NCBI GenBank assembly: GCA_903905655.1
Contig: CAIVHG010000004.1
Location: 1-43,049, forward strand
DNA from: an uncultured beta proteobacterium
GTDB taxonomy: Bacteria > Pseudomonadota > Gammaproteobacteria > Burkholderiales > SG8-41
Direction: 5' to 3'
DNA: 43,049 nt
Positions 1-26,445 of this stretch are shown piece by piece. The notes beneath the pieces were generated by a model. It made no database searches, was not told where the DNA came from, and worked only from the letters and a program-made list of their open reading frames with translations. Made by a program: the position numbers and the translations under genes. Position 1 is the first letter of the stretch, and the number at the start of each line of letters is the position of its first letter.

Positions 1-180
1 ATGATCTATTTCGACAAGCCCACGCAGTACCGGATATTGCAAAAGTTCGCGCCGCTGCTCGCGCCAGGCGGGCTGCTCTTTGCCGGCCATTCCGAGAGCT
101 TCCATCACGCCGCCGACTTGTTCAGACCGTGCGGCAAGACTGTCTACCGTCGCGCCGGCGCACAGGGCGTTGCGGCATGA
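1..180 (+). CDS. cheR: Chemotaxis protein methyltransferase CheR, C-terminal end (partial)
   Basis: The window opens inside this gene; only the last 59 codons before the TGA are present. CheR is the cytoplasmic SAM-dependent methyltransferase that methylates glutamates on chemoreceptors and works against CheB. The readable piece matches the end of the Rossmann-type catalytic domain: the N-(V)MIYFDK segment typical of CheR, then a stretch on the pattern L-x-PGGLLFAGHSES. Its stop overlaps the cheD start (ATGA at 177-180), so the two are probably translationally coupled. The family assignment rests on this short fragment plus the cheD-cheB context. The catalytic N-terminal half cannot be judged from here. 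Confidence 0.85.
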   Translation: MIYFDKPTQYRILQKFAPLLAPGGLLFAGHSESFHHAADLFRPCGKTVYRRAGAQGVAA

Positions 181-791
181 TTCAGAGTTATGAGGAGCAA
201 CTCGCGGCCAATGTCTATTTCGACCGCAGCTTCAAACTCGAGACGGCGAAATTGCTGCCTGGAGAATATTACGTCACCGATCGCAACATGATGCTCGTCA
301 CCGTGCTTGGCTCGTGCGTGGCGGCGTGCGTGCGCGACCCCCGGCACGGCATCGGCGGCATGAATCACTTCATGCTGCCGGACAGCGCGGGCGACGGCGC
401 CAGCCCGGTCAGCAATTCGGCGCGCTACGGGACCTACGCCATGGAGATACTGATCAACCAGCTGATCAAGCTCGGCGCGCGCCGCGAGGCCCTGGAGGCG
501 AAGGTCTTCGGTGGCGGCAACGTGCTGCGGGGGCTGACCATCGCCAACGTCGGGCAGCGCAACGCCGATTTCGTGCTTGAGTTTCTGGCGGCGGAGCAGA
601 TTCCCGTGCGCGGGCGCGATCTGGTGGGAGAGTGGCCGCGCAAAGTTCATTACTTTCCCGCAGATGGACGCGTGCTCATGAAAAAGCTGCAACCGCCCAT
701 GCACAACGACACGATCTACGTGCGCGAAGTCGAATACCGGTCGCGTTTGGTCACTGCCAAAGTTGCGGGCGTTGTCGAGCTCTACGCCTGA
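177..791 (+). CDS. cheD: Chemoreceptor glutamine deamidase CheD
   Basis: 204-residue protein of the CheD family, which deamidates specific glutamines on methyl-accepting chemotaxis proteins to give methylatable glutamates. The family's catalytic Cys and His are both visible: C47 in V-LGSC-V and H64 in GGMNHFMLP. The length is normal for the family. The frame is open further upstream (from 129), but I chose the ATG at 177 because it overlaps the cheR stop as ATGA and gives the usual N-terminus. cheB follows after 27 bp, so cheR-cheD-cheB form one adaptation module. In some bacteria CheD also interacts with CheC; no cheC is in this window, and CheZ is the visible CheY phosphatase. Confidence 0.95.
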   Translation: MIQSYEEQLAANVYFDRSFKLETAKLLPGEYYVTDRNMMLVTVLGSCVAACVRDPRHGIGGMNHFMLPDSAGDGASPVSNSARYGTYAMEILINQLIKLGARREALEAKVFGGGNVLRGLTIANVGQRNADFVLEFLAAEQIPVRGRDLVGEWPRKVHYFPADGRVLMKKLQPPMHNDTIYVREVEYRSRLVTAKVAGVVELYA

Positions 792-818: not shown

Positions 819-1895
819 ATGGAAAAAATTAAGGTACTGATCGTCGACGATTCCGCCCTTATCCGCAAGGTGCTGACGGAGATCATCAACGGGCAGCACG
901 ACATGGAGGCGGTCGGCGCCGCGCCCGATCCGCTGGTCGCGCGCGAGATGATCCGGCAGCTCAACCCGGATGTGCTGACGCTTGACGTCGAGATGCCGAA
1001 GATGGACGGGCTGGATTTCCTGGAGAAGTTGATGCGGTTGCGGCCGATGCCGGTGGTGATGGTGTCCACCCTCACCCAGCGCGGCTCCGAGGTCACGTTC
1101 CGGGCGCTCGAGCTCGGGGCGGTGGATTTCATCGCCAAGCCGCGCATCGATATTGTGGCCGGGATGCAGAACTATGGCCGCGAAATCGCCGACAAGATCC
1201 GCGCTGCGATGTCAGCGCGCGTCAAGCGGCATGCGCCGGCGGTGGCGCCCAGCAATAACGCGGACGTCGTGTTGCCGGCGGTCGCGAGCCGCGTCGCTTC
1301 CACCGAAAAGCTGATCGTGGTTGGGGCGTCCACCGGCGGCACCGAAGCGATCAAGGAATTCCTGATCCATCTGCCCGCGGACTGCCCGGGCATATTGATC
1401 ACCCAGCACATGCCAGAGGCGTTCACGAAATCCTTTGCCTTGCGGCTGGACAGCCTGTGCAAGATCTCGGTCAAGGAAGCCGAGCACGCCGAGCGCGTGC
1501 TGCCTGGACATGCCTACGTCGCGCCCGGGCACTCCCACCTGCTGCTCAAGCGCAGTGGCGCCAACTACATGACGGAATTGAGCCAGGCGGAGCCCGTCAA
1601 TCGCCATCGTCCGGCAGTCGACGTGTTGTTCCGTTCCGCTGCCAATTACGCGGGCAGGAATGCGGTCGGTGTGATCCTCACCGGCATGGGCCGGGACGGG
1701 GCCGCCGGCATGCTCGAAATGCATCGCGCGGGCGCCTACAACTATGCTCAGGACGAGGCGAGCTGCGTGGTGTTCGGCATGCCGCGCGAAGCGATCGCTG
1801 CCGGCGCCGTCGATGAGGTCGTCCCGCTTGCGGAAATGTCGCGGCGCGTACTGCAGCATCTCACCGTAATGGGCGGGCGCGGCACACGCGTCTGA
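819..1895 (+). CDS. cheB: Protein-glutamate methylesterase / response regulator CheB
   Basis: 358-residue two-domain protein. An N-terminal receiver domain (about residues 4-120) carries phosphoacceptor D56 in the [10 protein letters not shown] motif. A linker leads to the C-terminal methylesterase domain (about 165-350). The catalytic triad is present: S171 in [10 protein letters not shown]197 in ITQHMP and D293 in GMGRDGAAG. CheB demethylates chemoreceptors when phosphorylated by CheA and so drives adaptation opposite CheR. The start is supported by an AGAGGA Shine-Dalgarno sequence just upstream. The next gene is more than 500 bp away, so this is probably the end of the cheR-cheD-cheB transcript. 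Confidence 0.97.
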
Positions 1896-2454
1896 GGCCG
1901 TCGCTAGCCTCCTGCCGGTGATTCTGCTGCATTAAAGAGTCGCCGGCATAAGCCGTTACAGCAACTGTGCAGTCGAGCATTGACAGCACCGTCGCATGGA
2001 GACGGGTATCCACGCGCGCATGGCAACGGCAAGGCGGGCATAGACTTGCTTCTACGAGTACTGGGAATTTAGCTGTGTGGCGCGATCGTCCCGAGTCCCT
2101 GCCAAACTTATCGCCAGTCGGCGTTGCGGCTCCCGCCAGCCCTGATTTCAAATTTCGTCGTAACGCCTTGCCCAAAGGCGGTCGTGATCCGCGGCGCTAC
2201 CAGCAGCGCGCTGCTTCCGGATATCAACGGCGATCGCTCTACCCTGGTTGCGTGCTTACGCTCCAGGATCCGCGCAGCCATCGCATGACCGGGGGGGCTG
2301 CGCATCACCCGGCGCGTCGCCTCATCACTAGCCTCCACCCGAATGAAGCCGCTGGACCCAGCGGCCGTCGGGGACCTACAACAGCAAGCGCGCAATGTAA
2401 ATTCAACGGTAAGCCGTCGCCGACTGCACGACAGCGGTTCAAGTGGATAGTCAA
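1896..2454. other. Long non-coding interval between cheB and the HDOD-REC-GGDEF gene
   Basis: About 560 bp without a gene I can support. It holds a sigma-28-like promoter near its left end (1933-1959), a perfect 7-bp hairpin (2348-2365, arms GCCGCTG/CAGCGGC, loop GACC) and a G7 run (2291-2297). Open frames exist on both strands, for example 1967-2458 (+) and 2108-2464 (-). Their translations are rich in Arg, Ser and Pro with no recognisable motif, so I treat them as non-coding. The stretch could be a long regulatory leader or a decayed gene or mobile-element remnant; the sequence alone does not decide. Confidence 0.5.
1933..1959 (+). promoter_or_regulatory. Candidate sigma-28 (FliA) promoter
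   Basis: TAAA at 1933-1936, exactly 15 nt, then GCCGTTAC at 1952-1959. The enterobacterial FliA consensus is TAAA-N15-GCCGATAA, so the -35 tetramer is perfect and the -10 matches 6 of 8. The flagellar/chemotaxis context fits. The only plausible target on this strand is the HDOD-REC-GGDEF gene almost 500 nt downstream. Confidence 0.5.
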
Positions 2455-4509
2455 ATGAATGCAAAGACCAATGGCGATCCGGCCGCGGAACCGCTCAAGA
2501 TCGGCGACCCGCTCAAGTTGAGCGCACTGAAGGCATTGGGTCAACTGCCGTCGCCCGAGGGCGTGGCACTCGCCATCATGCAACTGTTGCGCAAAGAGAA
2601 GGTCAATGCCAACGAAATCGCGCGCCTGGTCAAGGCAGACCCGGCGCTGACGGGAAGGATCATCAAGGCCGCCAACCTCAGCACTGCGTTTATTCCAGGG
2701 CGCCGGCCGGTAGCCGGTGTTCCGGATTCTATCGTGATCCTCGGTGTTGCGGCGGTGCGCCAGTTCGCGCTGGGCTTTTCGTTGATCTCCAAATATCGGG
2801 AAGGTGTCTGTCAGCAGTTTGACTACGACGGCTTTTGGTCGCGCTCACTGCTCGCCGCGATCGCAATGCAGGCGTTGACTACTCATACCCATGCTGCGCA
2901 GCCGGAAGAGACATTTGTCACGGGCCTGCTCAGCAGAATCGGCAGCCTCGCGCTGGCCACGCTTTTTCCACAGCACTACGGGCGCCTGCTCGTGCAGGCG
3001 GCAGGCTTTACGCACATCGAGTTGGCGCGACTGGAGCAGAAGGAGCTTGCGACGGACCATAATGAACTCACGGCGTGCCTGCTCGCCGATTGGGGCATTC
3101 CGCAGACGCTCGTCGAATCTGCCTATTATCACGAGCATCCAGACTCCTGCAGCTATCCCACCGGATCCCGCGCGTACCTGCTCGTGCGGTCGCTGAATCT
3201 TGCGGTGCGGCTTTCCGAAGTACTTACGGCGCCAGGAGAACGCCGCCCTTGGGCGTTGGCGGAGCTGTTCGCCTCGGGCGCGCGTCTGGGATTGGACGCG
3301 GAAGCCATGATCGCTCTGGCAGATCAATTGGTCAGGGAGTGGCAGGAGTGGGGGCGGGTGCTCAAAGTCACAACGCAGAATGTGGCGTCCTTCGCGGACT
3401 TGTCGCAGATTTTTCGCGACCTGCCGGCGGCCGATCCCGGCGACGGGCTGGTGGAAGCCCGCGGCAGCGGGGCGCTACGTGTGATGGTAGTCGACGGACA
3501 TTGGCCGGCGCTGTTGCAGCTGCAGGAAACGCTGCGCGAAGCGGGACACGAGGTGTGCATTGCGACGGATGGAGAGGATGCACTCAAAGTGGCACTTGAA
3601 CGGCGGCCGCAGGTAGTCATTACGGACTGGATCATGCCGAATATGGATGGGGTGAGCCTGTGCCGTGCGCTGCGCGAGACCAAGGTCGGGAACTCGATGT
3701 ACCTGGTGCTGCTCGCGGAAGACGAGGAAGAAAGTACGCTTGAGACGGCGTTCGAAGCGGGCGTCGATGATTGCAAAGTGAAGCCCCTGAACTACCGGGC
3801 CCTCGTTTCGCGCATGCGCACCTTCGAGCGCGTGATCAAACTGCGCGAGGAGATCGAGCTCGACCGTGAGGAAATCCGGCGCTTTGCCGGCGATCTTGCG
3901 ATTGCCAACAAGCGCCTGCAGGAATCCGCGCTCGTCGATGCACTTACACAGATTCCCAATCGGCGTTATGCGGTCGATCGCATGCACACTGAGTGGGTGG
4001 CGGCGCAACGCAGCGGCGACCCACTTTCGTGCATGATGATCGACATTGATTGCTTCAAACGTATCAATGACAACTACGGTCATGCCTGCGGAGACGGCAT
4101 CCTGCGAGCCGTGGCCCAGGTGCTGAAGATAAATGCGCGGGCCGGGGATGTCGTCGCACGATTGGGTGGAGAGGAGTTTCTCGTTATTTGTCCGGGCACC
4201 AGGCTGGTTGAGGCCGGTCGGAGCGCGGAGCGCCTGCGGAGTGCAGTGCAGACGAGTTCCTTGGACGATCGCGTGCCCGATGGCGAGCAGATCACGGTCA
4301 GCATCGGCGTTGCGATGATAGAAGACGGGATGTGCGGATCCGAGGACGTCATCGAGCTGGCCGATCAGGCCCTATATGTTGCCAAGCACACCGGGCGTAA
4401 CCGGGCTTGCGTTGCGCACAGCCGGAACCTCATTTTTCCGGTGAGAGCCGTACAGCCTTTTGTATCCGAACCTGGCATCGCGCTGAACGCGGCGAATTTT
4501 GCGCATTGA
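2455..4509 (+). CDS. HDOD - receiver - diguanylate cyclase (GGEEF) signalling protein
   Basis: 684-residue cytoplasmic protein. Numbering is from the ATG at 2455, which has a weak GGAT upstream; a GTG at 2443 would add four residues. An HDOD domain covers about residues 15-215 (pattern LP-SPE-VAL, then VKADPALTGRIIKAAN). A receiver domain covers about 340-455 and a GGDEF domain about 500-655. The active site reads GGEEF (571-575), and an RxxD inhibitory site (R562, D565) sits five residues upstream, so cyclic-di-GMP synthesis with product inhibition is expected. The receiver keeps D391 (ITDWIMPNMDG) and K443 but is degenerate elsewhere: the usual DD pair is D347-G348, and the conserved Thr/Ser position reads Leu in LLAE. 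It lies between cheB and cheYZ, so it probably links chemotaxis or motility with c-di-GMP. That role is inference. Confidence 0.88.
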   Translation: MNAKTNGDPAAEPLKIGDPLKLSALKALGQLPSPEGVALAIMQLLRKEKVNANEIARLVKADPALTGRIIKAANLSTAFIPGRRPVAGVPDSIVILGVAAVRQFALGFSLISKYREGVCQQFDYDGFWSRSLLAAIAMQALTTHTHAAQPEETFVTGLLSRIGSLALATLFPQHYGRLLVQAAGFTHIELARLEQKELATDHNELTACLLADWGIPQTLVESAYYHEHPDSCSYPTGSRAYLLVRSLNLAVRLSEVLTAPGERRPWALAELFASGARLGLDAEAMIALADQLVREWQEWGRVLKVTTQNVASFADLSQIFRDLPAADPGDGLVEARGSGALRVMVVDGHWPALLQLQETLREAGHEVCIATDGEDALKVALERRPQVVITDWIMPNMDGVSLCRALRETKVGNSMYLVLLAEDEEESTLETAFEAGVDDCKVKPLNYRALVSRMRTFERVIKLREEIELDREEIRRFAGDLAIANKRLQESALVDALTQIPNRRYAVDRMHTEWVAAQRSGDPLSCMMIDIDCFKRINDNYGHACGDGILRAVAQVLKINARAGDVVARLGGEEFLVICPGTRLVEAGRSAERLRSAVQTSSLDDRVPDGEQITVSIGVAMIEDGMCGSEDVIELADQALYVAKHTGRNRACVAHSRNLIFPVRAVQPFVSEPGIALNAANFAH

Positions 4510-4817: not shown

Positions 4818-5222
4818 ATGACTGATCCCAAATTAAGGTTTCTGGTGGTGGACGATTTCTCCACGATGCGCCGCATCGTCCGCAATCTGCTCAAGGAACT
4901 GAGCTACACCGACGTCGATGAAGCCGAGGACGGCGTGATGGCGCTGCAGAAGCTCAAGGCCGAAAAATTCGATTTCGTCGTCTCGGACTGGAATATGCCG
5001 AACATGACGGGGATTGAACTGCTGAAGTCGATTCGCTCCGACGACGGCCTGAAACATCTGCCGGTGCTGATGGTCACCGCGGAAGCGAAAAAGGAGAACA
5101 TCATCGAGGCGGCCCAGTGCGGAGCGAGCGGCTATGTGGTGAAGCCTTTTACGGCCGCGACCCTGAGCGAGAAGCTGACCAAGATCTTCCAGAACATAGA
5201 GCGCGCGGGGGTGCGGCCATGA
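4818..5222 (+). CDS. cheY: Chemotaxis response regulator CheY
   Basis: 134-residue single receiver domain, the normal CheY size. Conserved positions are present: the acidic pair in VVDDF, phosphoacceptor D57 in VVSDWNMPN, the Thr of MVTAEA, and K109 in the VVKPF motif. Phospho-CheY, made by CheA, binds the flagellar switch (FliM) to change rotation. The start has GGAG five nt upstream. Its stop overlaps the cheZ start as ATGA (5219-5222), so kinase output and phosphatase are translationally coupled. cheA and cheW are not in the window and presumably lie to the left. Confidence 0.97.
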
Positions 5223-5941
5223 ACGGCCACGGGCAGGCCCACGGCAACGTGCAATTCCAGGAGATTTTGGCCGCGCCGCGCGATCCGCACGTGTGCGCCG
5301 GGCCCGGCACCGCCGATGCGCCCTGCGGCGGAGGGGAGTCCGACGGGGAACTGATCTCGCGCATCGGCAAGATCACGCGGGTGCTCCACGAAAGCCTGCG
5401 CGAACTGGGTTACGACAAGAAGCTAGCATCCGCGGCGTCCTCCATGCCCGAGGCGCGCGACCGCCTGTCTTACGTCGCGGGCCTGACGCAGGCGGCGGCG
5501 CAGCGCGCGCTCAACGCGATCGAGACGGCGAAGCCGATTCAGGACAAGCTCGCCAGCGATGCAAACCTGCTCGCTCAGCGCTGGAATACTCTGTTCGCAG
5601 ATCCACCGGGAGTCGAAGACTTCAAGACCCTGGTCGCGCACACGCGCGAGTTTCTGGCATCGGTCCCGGCGCACGCTTATGCCACGGACGTGCAGCTGAC
5701 GGAAATCATGCTTGCTCAGGAGTTCGAGGATCTGGCGGGGCAGGTGATCAGGAAGATCATCGACATCGTGCACCAGCTCGAAGCCCAGTTGCTCGAACTC
5801 CTGCTGGAGACCATGCCGCAGGAGCGCCGGCCGGACCCGCCTGGAGTGCTGGCCGGGCCGGTCATTAGCGGCGTGGGACACAGCGAAGTCGTCAGCAGCC
5901 AGGCGCAGGTCGACAACCTGCTCGCCAGCCTCGGCTTCTGA
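5219..5941 (+). CDS. cheZ: CheY-P phosphatase CheZ
   Basis: 240-residue, mostly helical protein of the CheZ family, which accelerates dephosphorylation of CheY-P. The active-site segment FEDLAGQVI carries D171 and Q175, corresponding to the Asp and catalytic Gln of the enterobacterial enzyme. The C-terminus ([11 protein letters not shown]) is the conserved CheY-binding tail, attached through a linker rich in Pro and Gly. The frame is open from 5117, but the ATG at 5219 overlaps the cheY stop and gives a normal length. The N-terminal 40 residues are Gly/Pro-rich and not recognisable. A gene beginning with GTG follows after 7 bp. Confidence 0.95.
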
Positions 5942-5948
5942 GCGTGCG

Positions 5949-6518
5949 GTGAAAAGCGCCCATCCATTGTTGCCTGGCAATCAGGACGCAGCGTTCGATC
6001 CTCTGTCTGCGCATGCAGATGCGGCAGACCAGGTCGGCGCCGATGAAGCGCTCGATGCCGATGGCGTGCCTTACGATATCGAGGTGCTTGCGGAAGCGGT
6101 GCGCTGCTCGCGCATCATTCGCGGCGCCGCCGCCGGCGTCGACGTGAGCGGGTTGATCGAGCTCTGCCATTTGACGGAATCGCTGTTCGACCAGTTGCGC
6201 GAGCGCCGCATCGAGTTGTCGGGAGCGTTGCTGGACCTGATGCTCGCGGCCACGGCCGCGGTGCGTTCGATGTTCGATGAACTGGTGCGTGCGCAGCAGC
6301 CGGCGCCGTGCAAGCCTGCGCTGCTCTCGGAGCTGAAGGCGGCATTGCGCGGTGAAGCGTGGAGCGTCAGTTTTCCGACCCCGGGTTTCGTGTCCGTCAC
6401 GCAGCGCCCGTCGCCGCGTGAATGGCAGCAGCTCTACCTAGCGGTGCTGGAGGGTGAGTGCAAGGCGGCGCTGCACGCAGACGAATTCACGCCGGTGCAG
6501 CTCAGGCTGCGGCCTTGA
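5949..6518 (+). CDS. CheA P1 (HPt)-like protein lacking the phosphoacceptor histidine
   Basis: 189 residues from a GTG seven nt after the cheZ stop, so probably co-transcribed with cheYZ. I do not recognise a named family. Residues about 47-110 read like the second half of a CheA P1 domain: VRCSRIIRGAAAG aligns with the canonical F-R-A-A-H-S-I-K-G pattern, and LCHLTESLFDQLRERRIEL aligns with the following a-ELAH-x-x-E-x-LLD-x-LR-x-g-x-x-x-L helix pair. At the phosphorylated His the residue is R55. If the alignment is right, it cannot carry phosphate on that site. Residues about 115-189 are an unassigned region ending TPVQLRLRP. No membrane segment is seen. It could be a degenerate CheA-derived scaffold or competitor; function unknown. 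Confidence 0.7.
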   Translation: MKSAHPLLPGNQDAAFDPLSAHADAADQVGADEALDADGVPYDIEVLAEAVRCSRIIRGAAAGVDVSGLIELCHLTESLFDQLRERRIELSGALLDLMLAATAAVRSMFDELVRAQQPAPCKPALLSELKAALRGEAWSVSFPTPGFVSVTQRPSPREWQQLYLAVLEGECKAALHADEFTPVQLRLRP

Positions 6519-6656: not shown

Positions 6657-8030
6657 ATGCTTGCTGCCAATTTGCCAGAAGCAAATCGCGCACGCCACGC
6701 TGCGTCCGGGGAGACGACTACCCTGGCTGCGATCAAGCAGGCGATCGCGCGCGCTGAAACGGAGACGCAGGCCGCATTGGCGGCGCAGACGCGCGCGGCA
6801 TGGGAGGTGCATGTCCAGTTGCGTGCTGCGGACAGGGCGCGCGCCGAGTGCGAAGCCCGCACTGCGCTCGCGGATCGGGCGCGCGCCGAGGCCGACGCGG
6901 ATCAGGCCGCGCGCACGCGCGGGGCCCTTGAGCAGCAGCTTGCGCAGCAGGCGCGCGAGCGGCTGAGCGCAGAGGAGTCGCTTGCATCCGAGACGGCCGC
7001 GCGGCTGGAAGCCGAGCAGGCCGCGACCAGCGCCGTGCAGGAGCGCGCGCGCGCTGAACAGCGCGCCCGGCTTGCGGCACAGCAAACGGCAGATGAGGAA
7101 CGCGCGCTCGGGAAGCGCGCGCGGGCGGCAGCGCGCAAATCCGCGCTGCTGCGCAAGCGCCTGCAGGGCTCAGAGGCGTACACCCGTGCGCGATTGCTTG
7201 CACAGCAGCAGGCGTTGGCAGCGATCGAGGCGCGCGAGCGCGCAGAGCGCGAACTCGCAGAGCGCGCTGAGGAGCGCGCAGCGGCGGAGTCGCTACTAGC
7301 GCAGGCCGCAACGCAGCGTATGGCCGCTGAAGCAGCGGCTGCTGATGCGGCGGCAGCGTGCGAGGAGCGTGAGCGCAACGTTTGCGAGTGCGCGCAGGCG
7401 CGGGCATCCGCCGAACGCATGCGGGCGCAACTGCTGGCAGTGCGTGCGGCCGCAGAGAAGAAACTCGCCTGTGCGGCACGGACGCGCATGCATACGGAGC
7501 GGGAACTGGTCGCCGCCACCAAGAGCCGGCTCGCAGCAGAGCGCCGTGCACGGCGCTCCGCGAAAGCGCGCTTGGACGGGCTGCAGAGCCTGCAACCCGC
7601 GGCGTACGCCGCCGCTCCGGTAAGTCTGCAGATTTTGAACACTGCAACCGGCGACTCGCTCGCTGTGGTTTGTGCGAGCGTGCACGATGAGTCGCCAGAC
7701 GAGTACGTAGGCGGCGTCGTAGTCCGCGATAAGAATATGCGGGCCGCACCGCGCCATGAGGTTGTGGTCCATCAGGTGCAACGCACGCTCAGGCACCCAT
7801 GGGGGCTCAGCCTGCGCGGTTCGCTGCAGTTCATGCACCGCCATGTGATGGCGACTGCACTCGTCGCCTGTGCGATGCTGATGCCTGCGCTCTGGATTTG
7901 CGCGGGTGGTTTGTCGGCGGTCGCCGCTTCTGCCGGACCCGTGACGCTCGCTAAAGACAGTGCAGCGCCAGCTGTGGTCACGCCCGTCGTCGCTGCGCTG
8001 AAACTCGATCGCCGCCTGAGCATCCGCTAA
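6657..8030 (+). CDS. Ala/Arg/Glu-rich coiled-coil protein with one C-terminal membrane segment (unknown function)
   Basis: 457 residues, not recognised. Residues about 20-300 are an almost uninterrupted run of Ala, Arg, Glu and Gln with few prolines or glycines (patterns like RAEAD, AARLEAEQA, ERAERELAER). This predicts a long helical coiled coil. A short region of mixed composition follows (about 320-390). One hydrophobic segment lies at about 398-422, then a tail of about 35 residues. No N-terminal signal peptide is visible, so most of the chain should be cytoplasmic and anchored near the C-terminus. It sits 138 bp after the HPt-like gene and is the last gene of the chemotaxis end. TolA-like or polar-scaffold-like roles are possible but are only guesses from shape. 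Biased composition alone could mimic similarity to many coiled-coil proteins. Confidence 0.75.
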   Translation: MLAANLPEANRARHAASGETTTLAAIKQAIARAETETQAALAAQTRAAWEVHVQLRAADRARAECEARTALADRARAEADADQAARTRGALEQQLAQQARERLSAEESLASETAARLEAEQAATSAVQERARAEQRARLAAQQTADEERALGKRARAAARKSALLRKRLQGSEAYTRARLLAQQQALAAIEARERAERELAERAEERAAAESLLAQAATQRMAAEAAAADAAAACEERERNVCECAQARASAERMRAQLLAVRAAAEKKLACAARTRMHTERELVAATKSRLAAERRARRSAKARLDGLQSLQPAAYAAAPVSLQILNTATGDSLAVVCASVHDESPDEYVGGVVVRDKNMRAAPRHEVVVHQVQRTLRHPWGLSLRGSLQFMHRHVMATALVACAMLMPALWICAGGLSAVAASAGPVTLAKDSAAPAVVTPVVAALKLDRRLSIR

Positions 8031-21635: not shown

Positions 21636-22691
21636 TCAGCGCAGCGCGGCGTTGATCTTCTCGAGGGCGACGTTGCCGGGACACAGTTCGCGTTCCGACA
21701 GCCGGTTGAGCGGTGCCTCGATGGTGTCCAGGTGCGCGTGCATGTCATCGGCATCGGGGTTTACGTAGAGCAGCCCGGTCACCACCTCGCCCGCCGCCGC
21801 GCGCTCCTGCAGGTAGTTCATCGCCTTGATGCGGTCGGTGGCGTCGAAATCCGGAGCCAGCTTGCGCAGGGGCGTTACCGAGCCGTCGTGTTGCGTGATG
21901 GTGGTGATGGTGCCCGGCTCGTAATCGGCAGTGAGCGGGTCGCGGCTGGAGATGAAATCCAGGCGGTTCACCGCTTCGTTGTGCTCGCGTACGTAATCGT
22001 AACTCTTGGTCGAGCCGGCGTGGTTGTTGAACGCTATGCACGGCGACACCACGTCGATGAACGCAACGCCGCGATGCTCGATCGCCGCTTTGATGAGCGG
22101 GACCAGCTGCTTCTTATCGCCCGAAAAACCGCGTGCGACATAGGTCGCGCCGAGTTGCAGCGCCAGCCCCACCATGTCGATCGGAGAATCCGCGTTCACC
22201 ACCCCGCGCTTGGACTTGGAGCCCTTGTCGGCGGTCGCCGAGAACTGGCCCTTGGTCAGCCCGTAGACGCCGTTGTTCTCGACGATGTAGACCATGTTGA
22301 CGCCGCGGCGCATGCAGTGCGCGAACTGGCCGAGCCCGATCGAGGCCGAATCGCCGTCGCCGGATACGCCCAGATAGAGCAGCTCGCGGTTGGCGAGGTT
22401 GGCGCCGGTCACTACAGATGGCATGCGGCCGTGCACGCTGTTGAAGCCGTGCGAGTTGCCTAGAAAATAGTCAGGGGTCTTGGAGCTGCAGCCGATGCCC
22501 GAGAGCTTGGCGACCTTGTGCGGCTCGATATCGAGTTCCCAGCACGCCTGGATGATGGAAGCCGAGATCGAGTCGTGGCCGCAGCCGGCGCACAGCGTGG
22601 AGATCTTGCCTTCGTAGTCGCGCCGCGTGTAGCCGAGCGTATTGCGGTGCAGCTCGGGATGGTGCAGCAGGGGTTTCGCGAGATAGGTCAT
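21636..22691 (-). CDS. korB: 2-oxoacid:ferredoxin oxidoreductase, beta subunit (probably 2-oxoglutarate)
   Basis: 351-residue thiamine-diphosphate and [4Fe-4S] subunit. Four candidate cluster cysteines are C34 and C37 (TLCAGCGHDS), C68 (SGIGCSSKTP) and C218 (SPCIAFNNH). The TPP/Mg segment reads GVSGDGDSASIG, then VENNGVYGLTKGQ. It catalyses CoA-dependent oxidative decarboxylation of a 2-oxoacid with ferredoxin reduction, together with the alpha subunit encoded just upstream. The 54-bp gap to korA indicates one operon. Two-subunit enzymes of this type are usually 2-oxoglutarate oxidoreductases, but substrate cannot be proved from motifs. The terminator at 21561-21592 closes the operon. Confidence 0.92.
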   Translation of the reverse strand: MTYLAKPLLHHPELHRNTLGYTRRDYEGKISTLCAGCGHDSISASIIQACWELDIEPHKVAKLSGIGCSSKTPDYFLGNSHGFNSVHGRMPSVVTGANLANRELLYLGVSGDGDSASIGLGQFAHCMRRGVNMVYIVENNGVYGLTKGQFSATADKGSKSKRGVVNADSPIDMVGLALQLGATYVARGFSGDKKQLVPLIKAAIEHRGVAFIDVVSPCIAFNNHAGSTKSYDYVREHNEAVNRLDFISSRDPLTADYEPGTITTITQHDGSVTPLRKLAPDFDATDRIKAMNYLQERAAAGEVVTGLLYVNPDADDMHAHLDTIEAPLNRLSERELCPGNVALEKINAALR

Positions 22692-22745
22692 GTCGTAGCC
22701 TGGAGCGGATATGAGTGGATGCGTATGGGTTTTCGCGAGCCGCCG

Positions 22746-24584
22746 TCAGGAGGCCGTCTTCTTGATGGGAACCACGCTGCGCGAGGAGGCATGCTGCGAG
22801 ATCTGATCGACGATGAAGCGTGCGGTGATCGGCGTGCCGTCGTAGTGCAGGACCGACAGCAGTCGCGACGGATTGATCTTGGCTTCGTTGACCAAGAGCG
22901 TCTTCAGCTGGGCGTCGCGGTTCTGCTCGACCACGAACACCCAGGGATGCGCAGCCGCGAAATCGGCGATCTCGTTGTGGAACGGGAAGCCGCGCACGCG
23001 CAGCGCGTTGACGTGGATGCCGCGCTCTGCAAGCACGTCGAGCGCTTCCTGCATGGCGGGGCTGGTCGAGCCGTAGAAGATCGCGCCGAAGCGTGCGGGC
23101 TTCGCCGCCGGATAGAGCAGCGGCGCCGGCAGCAGCGTCTTGGCGGTCTCGAACTTGCGCAGCAGGCGTTGCATGTTGTCGACGTAATCGGGGCCGCGCT
23201 CGCTGTAACGGGCGTAGCGGTCCTTGGTGGTGCCGCGTGTGAAATAGGCGCCGCGGCTCGGATGCGTGCCGGGGAGGGTGCGGAAGCAGATGCCGTCGCC
23301 ATCGGCGTCCAGATAGCGGCCGAAGTCCCTGCCGGTTTCCAGCTCTTCCTCGCTCATGACTTTGCCGCGGTCATAGACCTGCGCATCGTCCCACTTCAGG
23401 GGCTCGCACAGCCGCGTGTTCATGCCGATGTCCAAATCCGTCATCACGAAGATCGGCGTCTGCAGGCGTTCTGCGAGATCGAAAGCCTTGGCCGTCAGTT
23501 CGAAGCATTCCGCCGGGTCCTCAGGGAACAGCAGCACGTGCTTGGTGTCGCCGTGCGAAGCGTAGGCGCAGGAGATGACGTCGGACTGCTGGGTGCGGGT
23601 CGGCATGCCGGTGGATGGTCCGCCGCGCTGCACGTTGATGATGACGGCGGGGATCTCGGCAAAGTGGGCGAGCCCGATGAATTCGGTCATCAGGGAAACG
23701 CCGGGGCCTGAGGTCGAGGTGAAGGCGCGTGCGCCGTTCCAGCCGGCGCCGATCACCATGCCGATCGATGCCAGTTCGTCTTCCGCCTGCACCACTGCAA
23801 ACTTGCGTTTTCCCGTCGCGGGGTCGACGCGGTAGGTCTGGCAGTGCTTGGTAAACGCCTCCGCGACCGAGGACGAAGGCGTGATCGGATACCACGCGCA
23901 GACCGTCGCTCCGCCGTAGACTGCGCCGAGCGCCGCGGCACTGTTGCCTTCGAGAAATATCTTGTTGCCCACGGCATTGGCGCGCACTACGCGCAGCCCG
24001 AGCGGGCAGGGCAGGTGCTCCAGCGCGTAGTCGCGGCCGAGGCGCAGCGCCTTCACGTTCGACTGCAGCAGCGTTTCCTTGCCTTTGTACTGTTCGGAGA
24101 ACAGGCGCTCGATCTCGGTGGGGTCCATCTCGAGCAGCGCCGACAGCGCGCCGACGTAGATGATGTTCTTGAACAGCTGGCGCTGGCGCGGATCGGTGTA
24201 GGTTGCGTTGCAGATCTCGGTGAGCGGCATGCCGATGACCTCGATGTCCTCGCGCAGCTTGGACTTCGGCATCGGCTTGGTGTTGTCATAGAACAGATAG
24301 CCGCCGGCCTCGATTTCAGCGACGTCAGCATCCCAGGTCTGAGGATTCATCGCCACCATCAGGTCGACACCGCCGCGCCGCGCCTGGTATCCCGCCTCGT
24401 TGACGCGCACTTCGTACCATGTTGGCAGGCCCTGGATGTTGGAGGGGAAGATGTTGCGCGGCGACACCGGCACGCCCATGCGCAGGATGGCGCGCGCGAA
24501 CAGTTCGTTGGCCGATGCCGAGCCCGAACCGTTGACGTTGGCGAATTTGACGACGAAATCGTTGATGGATGAAATGCGTTTCAT
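22746..24584 (-). CDS. korA: 2-oxoacid:ferredoxin oxidoreductase, gamma-alpha fused subunit
   Basis: 612 residues with the gamma domain fused ahead of alpha, the usual KorA form. The gamma part (about 1-190) has NVNGSGSASANELFARAILR and GGVDLMVAMNPQTWDADV. The alpha part (about 195-612) begins GNSAAALGAVYGGATVCAWY, followed by PITPSSSVAEAF, QAEDELASIGMVIGAGWNGA and the TSGPGVSLM loop, the 2-oxoacid/CoA-site region of this family. The C-terminal domain ends in VEQNRDAQLKTLLVNE. It starts 34 bp after korC and ends 54 bp before korB, so the order korC-korA-korB is a single unit. It is cytoplasmic. Confidence 0.93.
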   Translation of the reverse strand: MKRISSINDFVVKFANVNGSGSASANELFARAILRMGVPVSPRNIFPSNIQGLPTWYEVRVNEAGYQARRGGVDLMVAMNPQTWDADVAEIEAGGYLFYDNTKPMPKSKLREDIEVIGMPLTEICNATYTDPRQRQLFKNIIYVGALSALLEMDPTEIERLFSEQYKGKETLLQSNVKALRLGRDYALEHLPCPLGLRVVRANAVGNKIFLEGNSAAALGAVYGGATVCAWYPITPSSSVAEAFTKHCQTYRVDPATGKRKFAVVQAEDELASIGMVIGAGWNGARAFTSTSGPGVSLMTEFIGLAHFAEIPAVIINVQRGGPSTGMPTRTQQSDVISCAYASHGDTKHVLLFPEDPAECFELTAKAFDLAERLQTPIFVMTDLDIGMNTRLCEPLKWDDAQVYDRGKVMSEEELETGRDFGRYLDADGDGICFRTLPGTHPSRGAYFTRGTTKDRYARYSERGPDYVDNMQRLLRKFETAKTLLPAPLLYPAAKPARFGAIFYGSTSPAMQEALDVLAERGIHVNALRVRGFPFHNEIADFAAAHPWVFVVEQNRDAQLKTLLVNEAKINPSRLLSVLHYDGTPITARFIVDQISQHASSRSVVPIKKTAS

Positions 24585-24618
24585 GTCTGGACTTTCCTAT
24601 CCTCTATGCGAGTGGCGA

Positions 24619-26445
24619 CTAGGCGGCCTTGCGCTGCTGATTGGGGCGGCAGCCGGGTCCGGCATGCGTCATCTTGATCAGCGATTTCTGCATGTCCCAG
24701 GCGCCGGTCGGGCAGCGTTCGGCGCACAGGCCGCAATGCAGGCACACATCCTCGTCCTTGGCCATGATGCGGCCGGTCTTGAGCGGCGTCGACACGTACA
24801 GGTCCTGCTCCTTGTTGAGCGCCGGCGCGTTGAGCCGGGCGCGCAGATCCGGTTCTTCGGCATTGGCGGTAAAGGTGATGCAGTCCATGGGGCAGATGTC
24901 GACGCACGCGTCGCATTCGATGCACAGCTTGGGCGCGAACACCGTCTGTGCGTCGCAGTTCAGGCAGCGCTGCGCTTCGGCAAGCGCAAGCTTGGGATCG
25001 AAGCCGAGCTCGACTTCGACCTTGATGTTCTTCAGCGCGATCTTTTGATCCTTGAGCGGCACCTTGTAGCGCTGGTCGGGCGAAATCGAATTGTCGTAAC
25101 TCCACTCGTGGATGCCCATCTTCTGGGACGACAGATTTACCAGCGGCGACGGGCGCTGCTTGATGTCTTCGCCATTGCACAGCTTGTCAATCGAGATCGC
25201 AGCTTCGTGGCCGTGGGCGACGGCCCAGATGATGTTCTTGGGGCCGAAGGCCGAGTCGCCGCCGAAAAACACATGCGGCAGCGTCGACTGCATGGTGACT
25301 TTGTCGACCACCGGCATGTCCCACTTGTCGTCGAACTCGAGCCCGATGTCGCGCTCGATCCAGGGGAAGGCGTTTTCCTGGCCGACCGCGACCAGCACAT
25401 CGTCGCACTCATAGTGCACTTCGGCTTCGCCGGTGGGCACCAGGCGGCGGCGCCCCTTGGCGTCGTACTCCGCTTTGACTTTCTCGAACATGACGCCGGT
25501 CAGCTTGCTGCCCGAGTGCGTGAATGATTTCGGCACCAGGAAATTGAGGATTGGGATGCCTTCGTGTTCGGCATCTTCCTTTTCCCAGGGCGAAGCTTTC
25601 ATTTCCTCGAAGCCCGAGCGCACGATCACTTTGACGTCGGCACCGCCCAGGCGTTTTGCCGAGCGGCAGCAGTCCATCGCCGTGTTGCCGCCGCCGAGCA
25701 CGATCACGCGCTTGCCGATCTTGTCGATGTGGCCGAAGGAAACGCTCGACAGCCAGTCGATGCCGATGTGGATATTCTTCGCTGCCTCGGTGCGGCCGGG
25801 AATCTCGAGATCGCGTCCGCGCGGCGCACCGGTGCCGACGAAGACGGCGTCGTATTTGTCCTGCAGCACCTTCTTCAGGCTGTCGATGCGCTGTCCGCTG
25901 CGGAACTCGACGTTCATGCCGAGTACATAGCCCACTTCCTCGTCGATCACCGACTCGGGCAGGCGGAATTTTGGAATCTGGGTGCGAATCATGCCGCCGG
26001 CGCGCTTGTCGCCGTCGAACAGCACGATGTGGTAACCCAAAGGCGCCAGATCACGCGCCACCGTGAGCGATGCCGGGCCGGCGCCGATCAGCGCGATGCG
26101 CTTGCCGTTCTTCTTGAATGGTCCCTTGGGAATCCTGCCGCTGATGTCTTCTTTGAAGTCAGCTGCGACGCGTTTGAGCCTGCAGATTGCGACTGGCTCC
26201 GGCTTCTCGCCGTTGTTTTCCTCGACGCGGCCGCGGCGGCACGCCGGTTCGCAGGGACGGTCGCAAGTGCGGCCGAGGATGCCGGGAAACACATTGGATT
26301 CCCAGTTGACCATGTAGGCATCGCCGTATTTGCCGGCGGCGATCATGCGGATGTATTCGGGAACGGGCGTATGCGCTGGGCATGCCCACTGGCAATCGAC
26401 GACCTTATGAAAATAATCAGGCTGCTGTATATCGGTGGGCTTCAC
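24619..26445 (-). CDS. korC: Fe-S flavoprotein, NAD(P)H:ferredoxin/acceptor oxidoreductase subunit (GltD-like with C-terminal 2x[4Fe-4S])
   Basis: 608 residues from a GTG with AAGGAG at 26456-26451. The N-terminal GltD-type cysteine region has C18, C22, C61, C65 and C69. An FAD site (IALIGAGPASLTVARDLAP, about residue 115) and an NAD(P)H site (VIVLGGGNTAMDCCRSAKRL) follow. The C-terminus has two ferredoxin-type clusters, C508-x2-C511-x2-C514-x3-C518-P and C568-x2-C571-x2-C574-x3-C578-P. Upstream of korA and korB it fits the third subunit (KorC) described for 2-oxoglutarate:NADP+ oxidoreductase of denitrifying aromatic degraders such as Azoarcus evansii, passing electrons between ferredoxin-level clusters and NADP+. 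It could instead be a NADPH-dependent glutamate-synthase-like subunit of another complex. Confidence 0.85.
   Translation of the reverse strand: MKPTDIQQPDYFHKVVDCQWACPAHTPVPEYIRMIAAGKYGDAYMVNWESNVFPGILGRTCDRPCEPACRRGRVEENNGEKPEPVAICRLKRVAADFKEDISGRIPKGPFKKNGKRIALIGAGPASLTVARDLAPLGYHIVLFDGDKRAGGMIRTQIPKFRLPESVIDEEVGYVLGMNVEFRSGQRIDSLKKVLQDKYDAVFVGTGAPRGRDLEIPGRTEAAKNIHIGIDWLSSVSFGHIDKIGKRVIVLGGGNTAMDCCRSAKRLGGADVKVIVRSGFEEMKASPWEKEDAEHEGIPILNFLVPKSFTHSGSKLTGVMFEKVKAEYDAKGRRRLVPTGEAEVHYECDDVLVAVGQENAFPWIERDIGLEFDDKWDMPVVDKVTMQSTLPHVFFGGDSAFGPKNIIWAVAHGHEAAISIDKLCNGEDIKQRPSPLVNLSSQKMGIHEWSYDNSISPDQRYKVPLKDQKIALKNIKVEVELGFDPKLALAEAQRCLNCDAQTVFAPKLCIECDACVDICPMDCITFTANAEEPDLRARLNAPALNKEQDLYVSTPLKTGRIMAKDEDVCLHCGLCAERCPTGAWDMQKSLIKMTHAGPGCRPNQQRKAA

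Follow-up and report, generated by a model that had tools for sequence, protein, structure and literature searches.

What is the short open reading frame that lies directly behind cheZ in this uncultured beta proteobacterium, and is its product still of use to the cell? In the window, by which we mean the whole 43,049-nt stretch of DNA that was analysed, cheZ ends at position 5941 and a frame that stays open across 189 codons begins 7 bases further on (Table 1). The first-pass annotation had seen in it a CheA P1 domain with Arg55 in place of the phosphoacceptor His, encoded on its own and coupled to cheYZ. The ancestry and the substitution both held. The predicted protein aligned with the CheA P1 structure 1tqg at E 1.5e-8, with R55 opposite the His of its "HTLKG" motif, and with the N-termini of full-length CheA proteins in related genomes at E-values down to 2.9e-26, a likeness to P1 that is above chance at the level of sequence. 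The coupling to the chemotaxis genes stood as well, Pfam identifying the gene seven bases upstream as cheZ.

Several searches bore on what kind of P1 this is. The NCBIfam CheA profile matched it at E 1.7e-4 and Pfam Hpt (PF01627) at E 0.0013 and 19.4 bits, under the curated cut-off of 24.6, while a Pfam Hpt search of the organism's whole genome returned only the CheA of another contig (C15), the frame studied here not being among the matches. A search with its protein gave matches at E <=0.01 in 32 of 60 genomes, its own included, and the strongest of these were the N-termini of long frames; a scan of the named genomes in which the stump protein was the sole query yielded zero relatives. The likeness to relatives spans P1 and extends beyond it over the linker, where a D-W-x-x-L motif takes the form E158-W159-Q-Q-L-Y in the stump; its Trp is present in all 54 aligned sequences. 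Since P1 and linker are both covered and the matching regions lie at the start of cheA genes, the frame is the front of a cheA, and a stand-alone P1 family found no support, the strong matches examined being CheA starts. The CheA LID and ParP were considered as a possible meaning for the linker Trp motif; the Trp 305 described there is a residue of ParP and not of CheA.

The idea of a protein that had always stood alone failed when the loci were compared. In all 18 loci that were read with their flanks, the homologue at the same place, right after cheY-cheZ, is a cheA; 17 of these genes are full length (603-648 aa), and the remaining one runs off the end of its contig. Two relatives from the same genus (G001 and G002) share the order cheY, cheZ, cheA, a GGDEF gene (typed REC-PAS-GGDEF-EAL in G002) and an Ala/Arg-rich coiled-coil gene; in a further genome, G004, the contig ends before the coiled-coil position. 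The window runs cheY, cheZ, the stump, coiled coil. Measured against G001 and G002, the window has lost the 3′ part of cheA, about 70% of the gene, along with the GGDEF gene that comes next; most simply, this would be one deletion that began inside the linker region of cheA and stopped short of the coiled-coil gene, in the gap that precedes it. The coiled-coil protein of the window matched those of G001 and G002 at phmmer E-values of 1.2e-20 and 6.4e-20, best N-terminally and in strongly biased sequence, and BLASTP with low-complexity masking found no match between the window protein and these relatives. When CheA remnants were sought downstream of the stump, the matches were scattered and weak (for the relatives, E no better than 0.11), with no convincing P3-P5. 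By homology and by the locus that it shares with cheYZA clusters, the stump is a CheA by descent, and we consider its origin by truncation of a cheA nearly certain. As to the coiled-coil protein itself, it has no Pfam match, it shows by eye a hydrophobic segment near the C-terminus, and the relatives in G001 and G002 are longer.

Table 1. Features of the chemotaxis genes and of the truncated cheA in the window, with the evidence for each.
Feature	Position	Strand	Evidence
cheR, 3′ end (presumed)	1..180	+	continues from contig C15 through a 20-base exact overlap
cheD	177..791	+	domain match; ATG picked by eye inside the ORF
cheB	819..1895	+	domain match
HDOD-REC-GGDEF fusion gene between cheB and cheY	2443..4509	+	Pfam
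cheY	4818..5222	+	Pfam and locus comparison
cheZ, sole CheZ found in the assembled genome	5219..5941	+	Pfam E 7.9e-67
Truncated cheA (P1-derived stump and linker)	5949..6518	+	189 aa, GTG start, 7 bases 3′ of the cheZ stop
Residues 1-66, former helices A and B	5949..6146	+	19/28 conserved positions gone; helix A unpredicted; branch dN/dS ~0.5
Codon CGC, Arg55, phosphoacceptor-His column	6111..6113	+	alignment to CheA P1
Residues 67-136, helices C (67-84), D (92-113), E (123-133)	6147..6356	+	4/21 conserved positions gone; pLDDT 80-97; dN/dS 0.145
Residues 156-168, kept linker motif E158-W159-x-x-L-Y	6414..6452	+	alignment and AlphaFold
Ala/Arg/Glu-rich coiled-coil gene	6657..8030	+	relative two genes past cheA in G001 and G002; far edge of the deletion

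The stump does not lie in a cell bereft of its kinase. The final 20 bases of contig C15 (L050 18741-18760) are identical to positions 1-20 of the window, and a frame that we take by eye to be cheR runs through the junction. That end of C15 carries cheY, a 656-aa CheA, cheW, three genes presumed from their sequence to encode MCPs, and the cut cheR. Its CheA has Hpt, CheY-binding, H-kinase_dim, HATPase_c and CheW domains and the motif FRAAHSIKGG; because the contig joins the window by both overlap and cheR frame and this CheA is complete, a complete His-bearing kinase is encoded upstream in the same cluster. The assembled genome holds one H-kinase_dim and two CheW domains, all on C15 with the complete CheA and CheW, and FliM was found in it; at 113 contigs and 69.7% completeness, absence elsewhere in this genome is no proof. 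Two other observations concern the surroundings. Judged by its domains, the HDOD-REC-GGDEF gene would tie c-di-GMP signalling to the che cluster, and farther along (21636-26445, reverse strand) the window holds three adjoining genes of 2-oxoacid:ferredoxin oxidoreductase type, encoding TPP-binding, POR and pyridine-nucleotide/4Fe-4S proteins.

Looking across relatives, we found matches in some of the genomes and the stump in a single one. Within the genus, the stump protein had a match at E <=1e-20 in 4 of 15 genomes, the window's included, and CheZ was present in 5 of 15; in the fifth CheZ genome (G010, L060) an flhB-like sequence follows cheZ and cheA is absent at that spot, the flhB-like and flagellar export genes there being, we assume from inspection by eye, what they resemble. 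At E 1e-9, 8 of 74 genomes of the family and 169 of 399 of the order matched, again counting the organism's own. No second truncated orthologue was present among the matches listed, so that the stump is known from one genome. Seven other frames shorter than 600 aa appeared in the order search among the matches listed (to E 2.0e-16), and each was rejected upon inspection: five lay at contig ends, a sixth (G231) did so by its coordinates, and in the seventh (G332) P3-P5 adjoined in another frame. The sole other short frame in the family search ended with its contig. Also rejected, among the named loci, were L120 (170 aa), where P3-P5 follow in another frame, and two more loci (L146 and L166) that are cut by contig or locus ends. 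Apart from the question of orthologues, L120 (1377-3264) and L097 are cases, in two other genomes, of a cheA split over two frames, probably through sequencing or assembly frameshifts.

The phosphoacceptor column holds His in 47 of 47 relatives, which makes the Arg a change of this lineage. Among the named loci (80 kept of 459) the count was 80 of 80 (FHTIKG in 68, FHTVKG in 12), and this count is biased, since one of the two DNA patterns by which those loci were found contains the His. At residue 55 we infer from the alignment that the stump would be unable to carry phosphate. Two expectations of the first-pass annotation were thereby only partly realised. It had put the exchange of His for Arg forward as the change in this protein; the Arg is real, but much of helices A and B has changed along with it. 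It had also held that homologues with His would reduce the matter to a local mutation or a sequencing error; the homologues do carry His, yet neither a single local mutation nor a sequencing error accounts for the sequence, because 19 of the 28 conserved positions in helices A and B are altered.

That loss is strikingly uneven. Of the 49 positions at which 95% or more of the 47 relatives agree, the stump lost 19 of 28 in residues 1-66 (helices A-B) versus 4 of 21 in residues 67-136 (helices C-E; Fisher p 0.0012), and no relative lost more than two of the 49. A permutation over all split points gave p 0.002, with the best split between residues 70 and 72, and other conservation thresholds gave losses of 22/33 versus 4/24 and of 16/20 versus 2/15 for the two halves. 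A frameshift was rejected as an explanation for the changes in A-B: the segment aligns in frame, with one inserted residue within it and about four near the N-terminus. What separates the stump from its relatives is many diffuse substitutions, with no breakpoint.

Structure prediction divided the protein at the same place. The four-helix bundle with R55 at the His position, which the first-pass annotation had expected, did not appear: with 54 sequences, AlphaFold placed coil at residues 1-43 and a helix at 44-60 with pLDDT of about 60-68, followed by helices at 67-84, 92-113 and 123-133 with ten-residue pLDDT means of 80-97 and by a helix over the Trp motif (156-168) at about 66-69. A control relative (L112) predicted from the same sequences did form the bundle, with helices at 8-34, 39-58, 62-79, 87-108 and 118-128 and means of 94-98 over residues 11-130. 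Both predictions drew on one alignment, made up of the stump protein and 53 of the 80 named loci; 16 others had been removed by hand under no fixed rule, some of them with truncated or unusual starts, and the final eleven did not enter it either. Foldseek searches with the stump model returned CheA P1 entries as the top five at probabilities of 0.96-1.00, but with E-values of at least 0.056. With helix A missing, helix B uncertain and the Foldseek E-values weak, an intact HPt bundle is not predicted for the stump.

Codon evolution told the halves apart once more. We fitted a codon model with our own unpublished script, using 17 hand-chosen taxa of the 48 sequences and shared branch lengths. 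In the joint fit, dN/dS on the stump branch was 0.48 for A-B and 0.145 for C-E, values that are rough on account of saturation, neutral substitutions on this branch numbering about 5.8 per site. Equality of the two halves was rejected (2ΔlnL 20.2), as was dN/dS = 1 for C-E (2ΔlnL 15.5), and A-B was compatible with 1 (2ΔlnL 2.15); the picture did not change when 9 taxa were used or when the split was moved to 60 or 72. Three intact control CheAs gave 0.004, 0.035 and 0.033 for A-B and 0.062, 0.092 and 0.142 for C-E, so that A-B was the lower in all three, with the halves significantly different in two of them (2ΔlnL 11.9, 3.1 and 11.8). When the regions were fitted separately, A-B stood at 0.73 (1 not rejected), C-E at 0.148 (2ΔlnL against 1 of 5.16, a weak rejection) and the whole at 0.227 (9.48). 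The stump values come from one sequence, and its branch covers evolution both as a whole cheA and as a stump; the low C-E rate may therefore in part be older than the truncation, and A-B was possibly relaxed before the kinase was lost. Taken together, the lost positions, the AlphaFold model and the dN/dS contrast indicate that the phosphotransfer half has decayed and that the other half looks kept.

On balance, we judge that the stump has probably retained a function, and as its nature we favour, at a probability of about 0.4, a non-phosphorylatable binding module made beside CheZ and resembling the short form of CheA. Retention as a non-phosphorylatable partner had been suggested in the first-pass annotation, and we share this as something that may be so. 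The foremost competing account is a decaying pseudogene, in which the second cheA became redundant, its 3′ part was deleted, and the stump has been drifting with a frame not yet broken. We regard this as a serious contender, if one to which we give clearly less than even odds. The complete CheA upstream supplies the redundancy, and the amino-acid branch of the stump is very long, at 2.25 compared with a median of 0.27 and a maximum of 0.53 in relatives. The corresponding figures were 0.67 versus 0.39 (maximum 0.93) for CheZ and 0.18 versus 0.11 (maximum 0.32) for CheY; as these lie within the relatives' range, the neighbours are only somewhat fast and P1 is far outside. Further in favour of decay are the near-neutral rate of A-B, its low third-position GC (0.67, compared with 0.84 in C-E and 0.72-0.84 in the che genes), the occurrence in one genome, and a weak start signal, the GTG having a weak Shine-Dalgarno match and an anti-SD pairing of -2.7. 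Uniform drift, however, predicts that C-E should be hit equally, and its dN/dS is instead near the values seen in working CheAs; retention of the Trp motif in the linker likewise speaks against drift. The frame is still open too, which is weak evidence because the DNA is GC-rich and one of the reverse frames across it is interrupted by just a single stop.

If the binding-module reading is right, the stump would have been kept as a small module encoded beside CheZ, would bind CheZ much as E. coli CheA-short does with its later part of P1, and would either tune the activity of CheZ or compete with the complete CheA for it. Since P3-P5 are absent, the stump alone would be unable to anchor CheZ at receptors. 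A paper cited in PMC7750401 reports, by its title, a CheAS-CheZ complex with enhanced dephosphorylating activity. By this analogy and by the gene order, with cheZ seven bases away, CheZ would be the likeliest partner, though at less than even odds. In its most specific form, the proposal would be a selected adaptor, made up of helices C-D-E and the linker Trp motif and co-encoded with cheZ, that serves as a gene-encoded counterpart of CheA-short and regulates CheZ outside the receptor array, which we think rather unlikely when stated so fully. CheA-short starts at residue 98 and binds CheZ via L123 and L126 (PMC7750401, PMC7696710); of the P1 half kept in the stump it has a portion, and this portion serves in CheZ binding. 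In alignment, E. coli L123 falls on the kept L129 of the stump and L126 in an insertion; on the side of CheZ, the protein of the window retains Phe from the "WF" pair of E. coli, as do 15 of 18 relatives, and has Leu where E. coli has Trp. At residue level the comparison thus appears mixed with regard to CheZ binding.

A different role, as competitor or scaffold for CheA or CheY, would place the stump close to the plant pseudo-HPt AHP6. P1 ancestry with Arg for His fits such a role, and pseudo-HPt proteins have been described in plants, but in P1 structures much of the partner surface surrounds the His on helices A and B, exactly the part that was lost, and the prediction lacks the intact fold that a competing P1 would require; we hold this role to be improbable. 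Less probable by far is translation from an internal start, for example GTG 6099 (V51) or GTG 6144 (V66), by which A-B would be mostly leader and the C-E protein an encoded analogue of CheA-short. Constraint does set in at about residue 70, and the anti-SD pairing of GTG 6099 is -9.6, compared with that of the first GTG given above; this signal may be chance, since four other in-frame start-like codons pair at -7.6 to -8.7, its spacing is poor on inspection, and 9 of the 28 conserved A-B positions are still present. An assembly or binning artefact in the form of a chimeric contig, which a genome in so many contigs and so incomplete might suggest, is very improbable, as cheY, cheZ and the coiled-coil gene flank the stump in the order of the genus relatives and it is diffuse substitutions, not a breakpoint, that set the stump apart.

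If the stump is functional, CheA P1 would have a second, phosphate-independent job residing on helices C-E and selectable by itself, and the stump would offer a handle on the His-less HPt domains whose role is called undetermined in PMC10782961. If it is a pseudogene, it would represent the ordinary loss of a redundant chemotaxis kinase, with unusually uneven decay.

Among known systems, the nearest is the CheA of beta-proteobacterial cheY-cheZ-cheA clusters, which in one such locus (L033) has Hpt, H-kinase_dim, HATPase_c and CheW domains and no P2 match. The stump shares with it the locus, the order after cheZ, P1 helices C-E and the D/E-W motif of the linker, and differs in being without P3-P5, in having Arg for His and in its eroded helices A-B. 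AHP6 belongs to a plant phosphorelay, and the likeness drawn to it here is one of description (HPt-derived, without phospho-His). Likewise by description only, the frameshifted rcsD of Yersinia pestis (PMC10191623), a different protein in a different pathway, is a broken phosphorelay gene that reportedly alters signalling instead of merely vanishing. A lone CheA stump was not found in the open-access literature, among the matches listed (titles and abstract starts), and neither was a link of CheA-short, CheZ and Betaproteobacteria. His-less HPt domains are described, in PMC10782961, inside multi-HPt CheAs such as Pseudomonas aeruginosa ChpA and Rhodobacter sphaeroides CheA3; these lie within large CheAs, whereas the stump is alone and its predicted structure falls short of a complete bundle. 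Closest in what it may have kept is E. coli CheA-short, which, as described in PMC7750401 and PMC7696710, is likewise derived from CheA, lacks the phospho-His segment and retains the later P1 helices, a combination that the stump shows in its erosion of A-B and retention of C-E. CheAS arises by translation from within cheA and keeps P2-P5, by which it sits in the array, whereas the stump is a separate gene without them, its frame ending after the linker.
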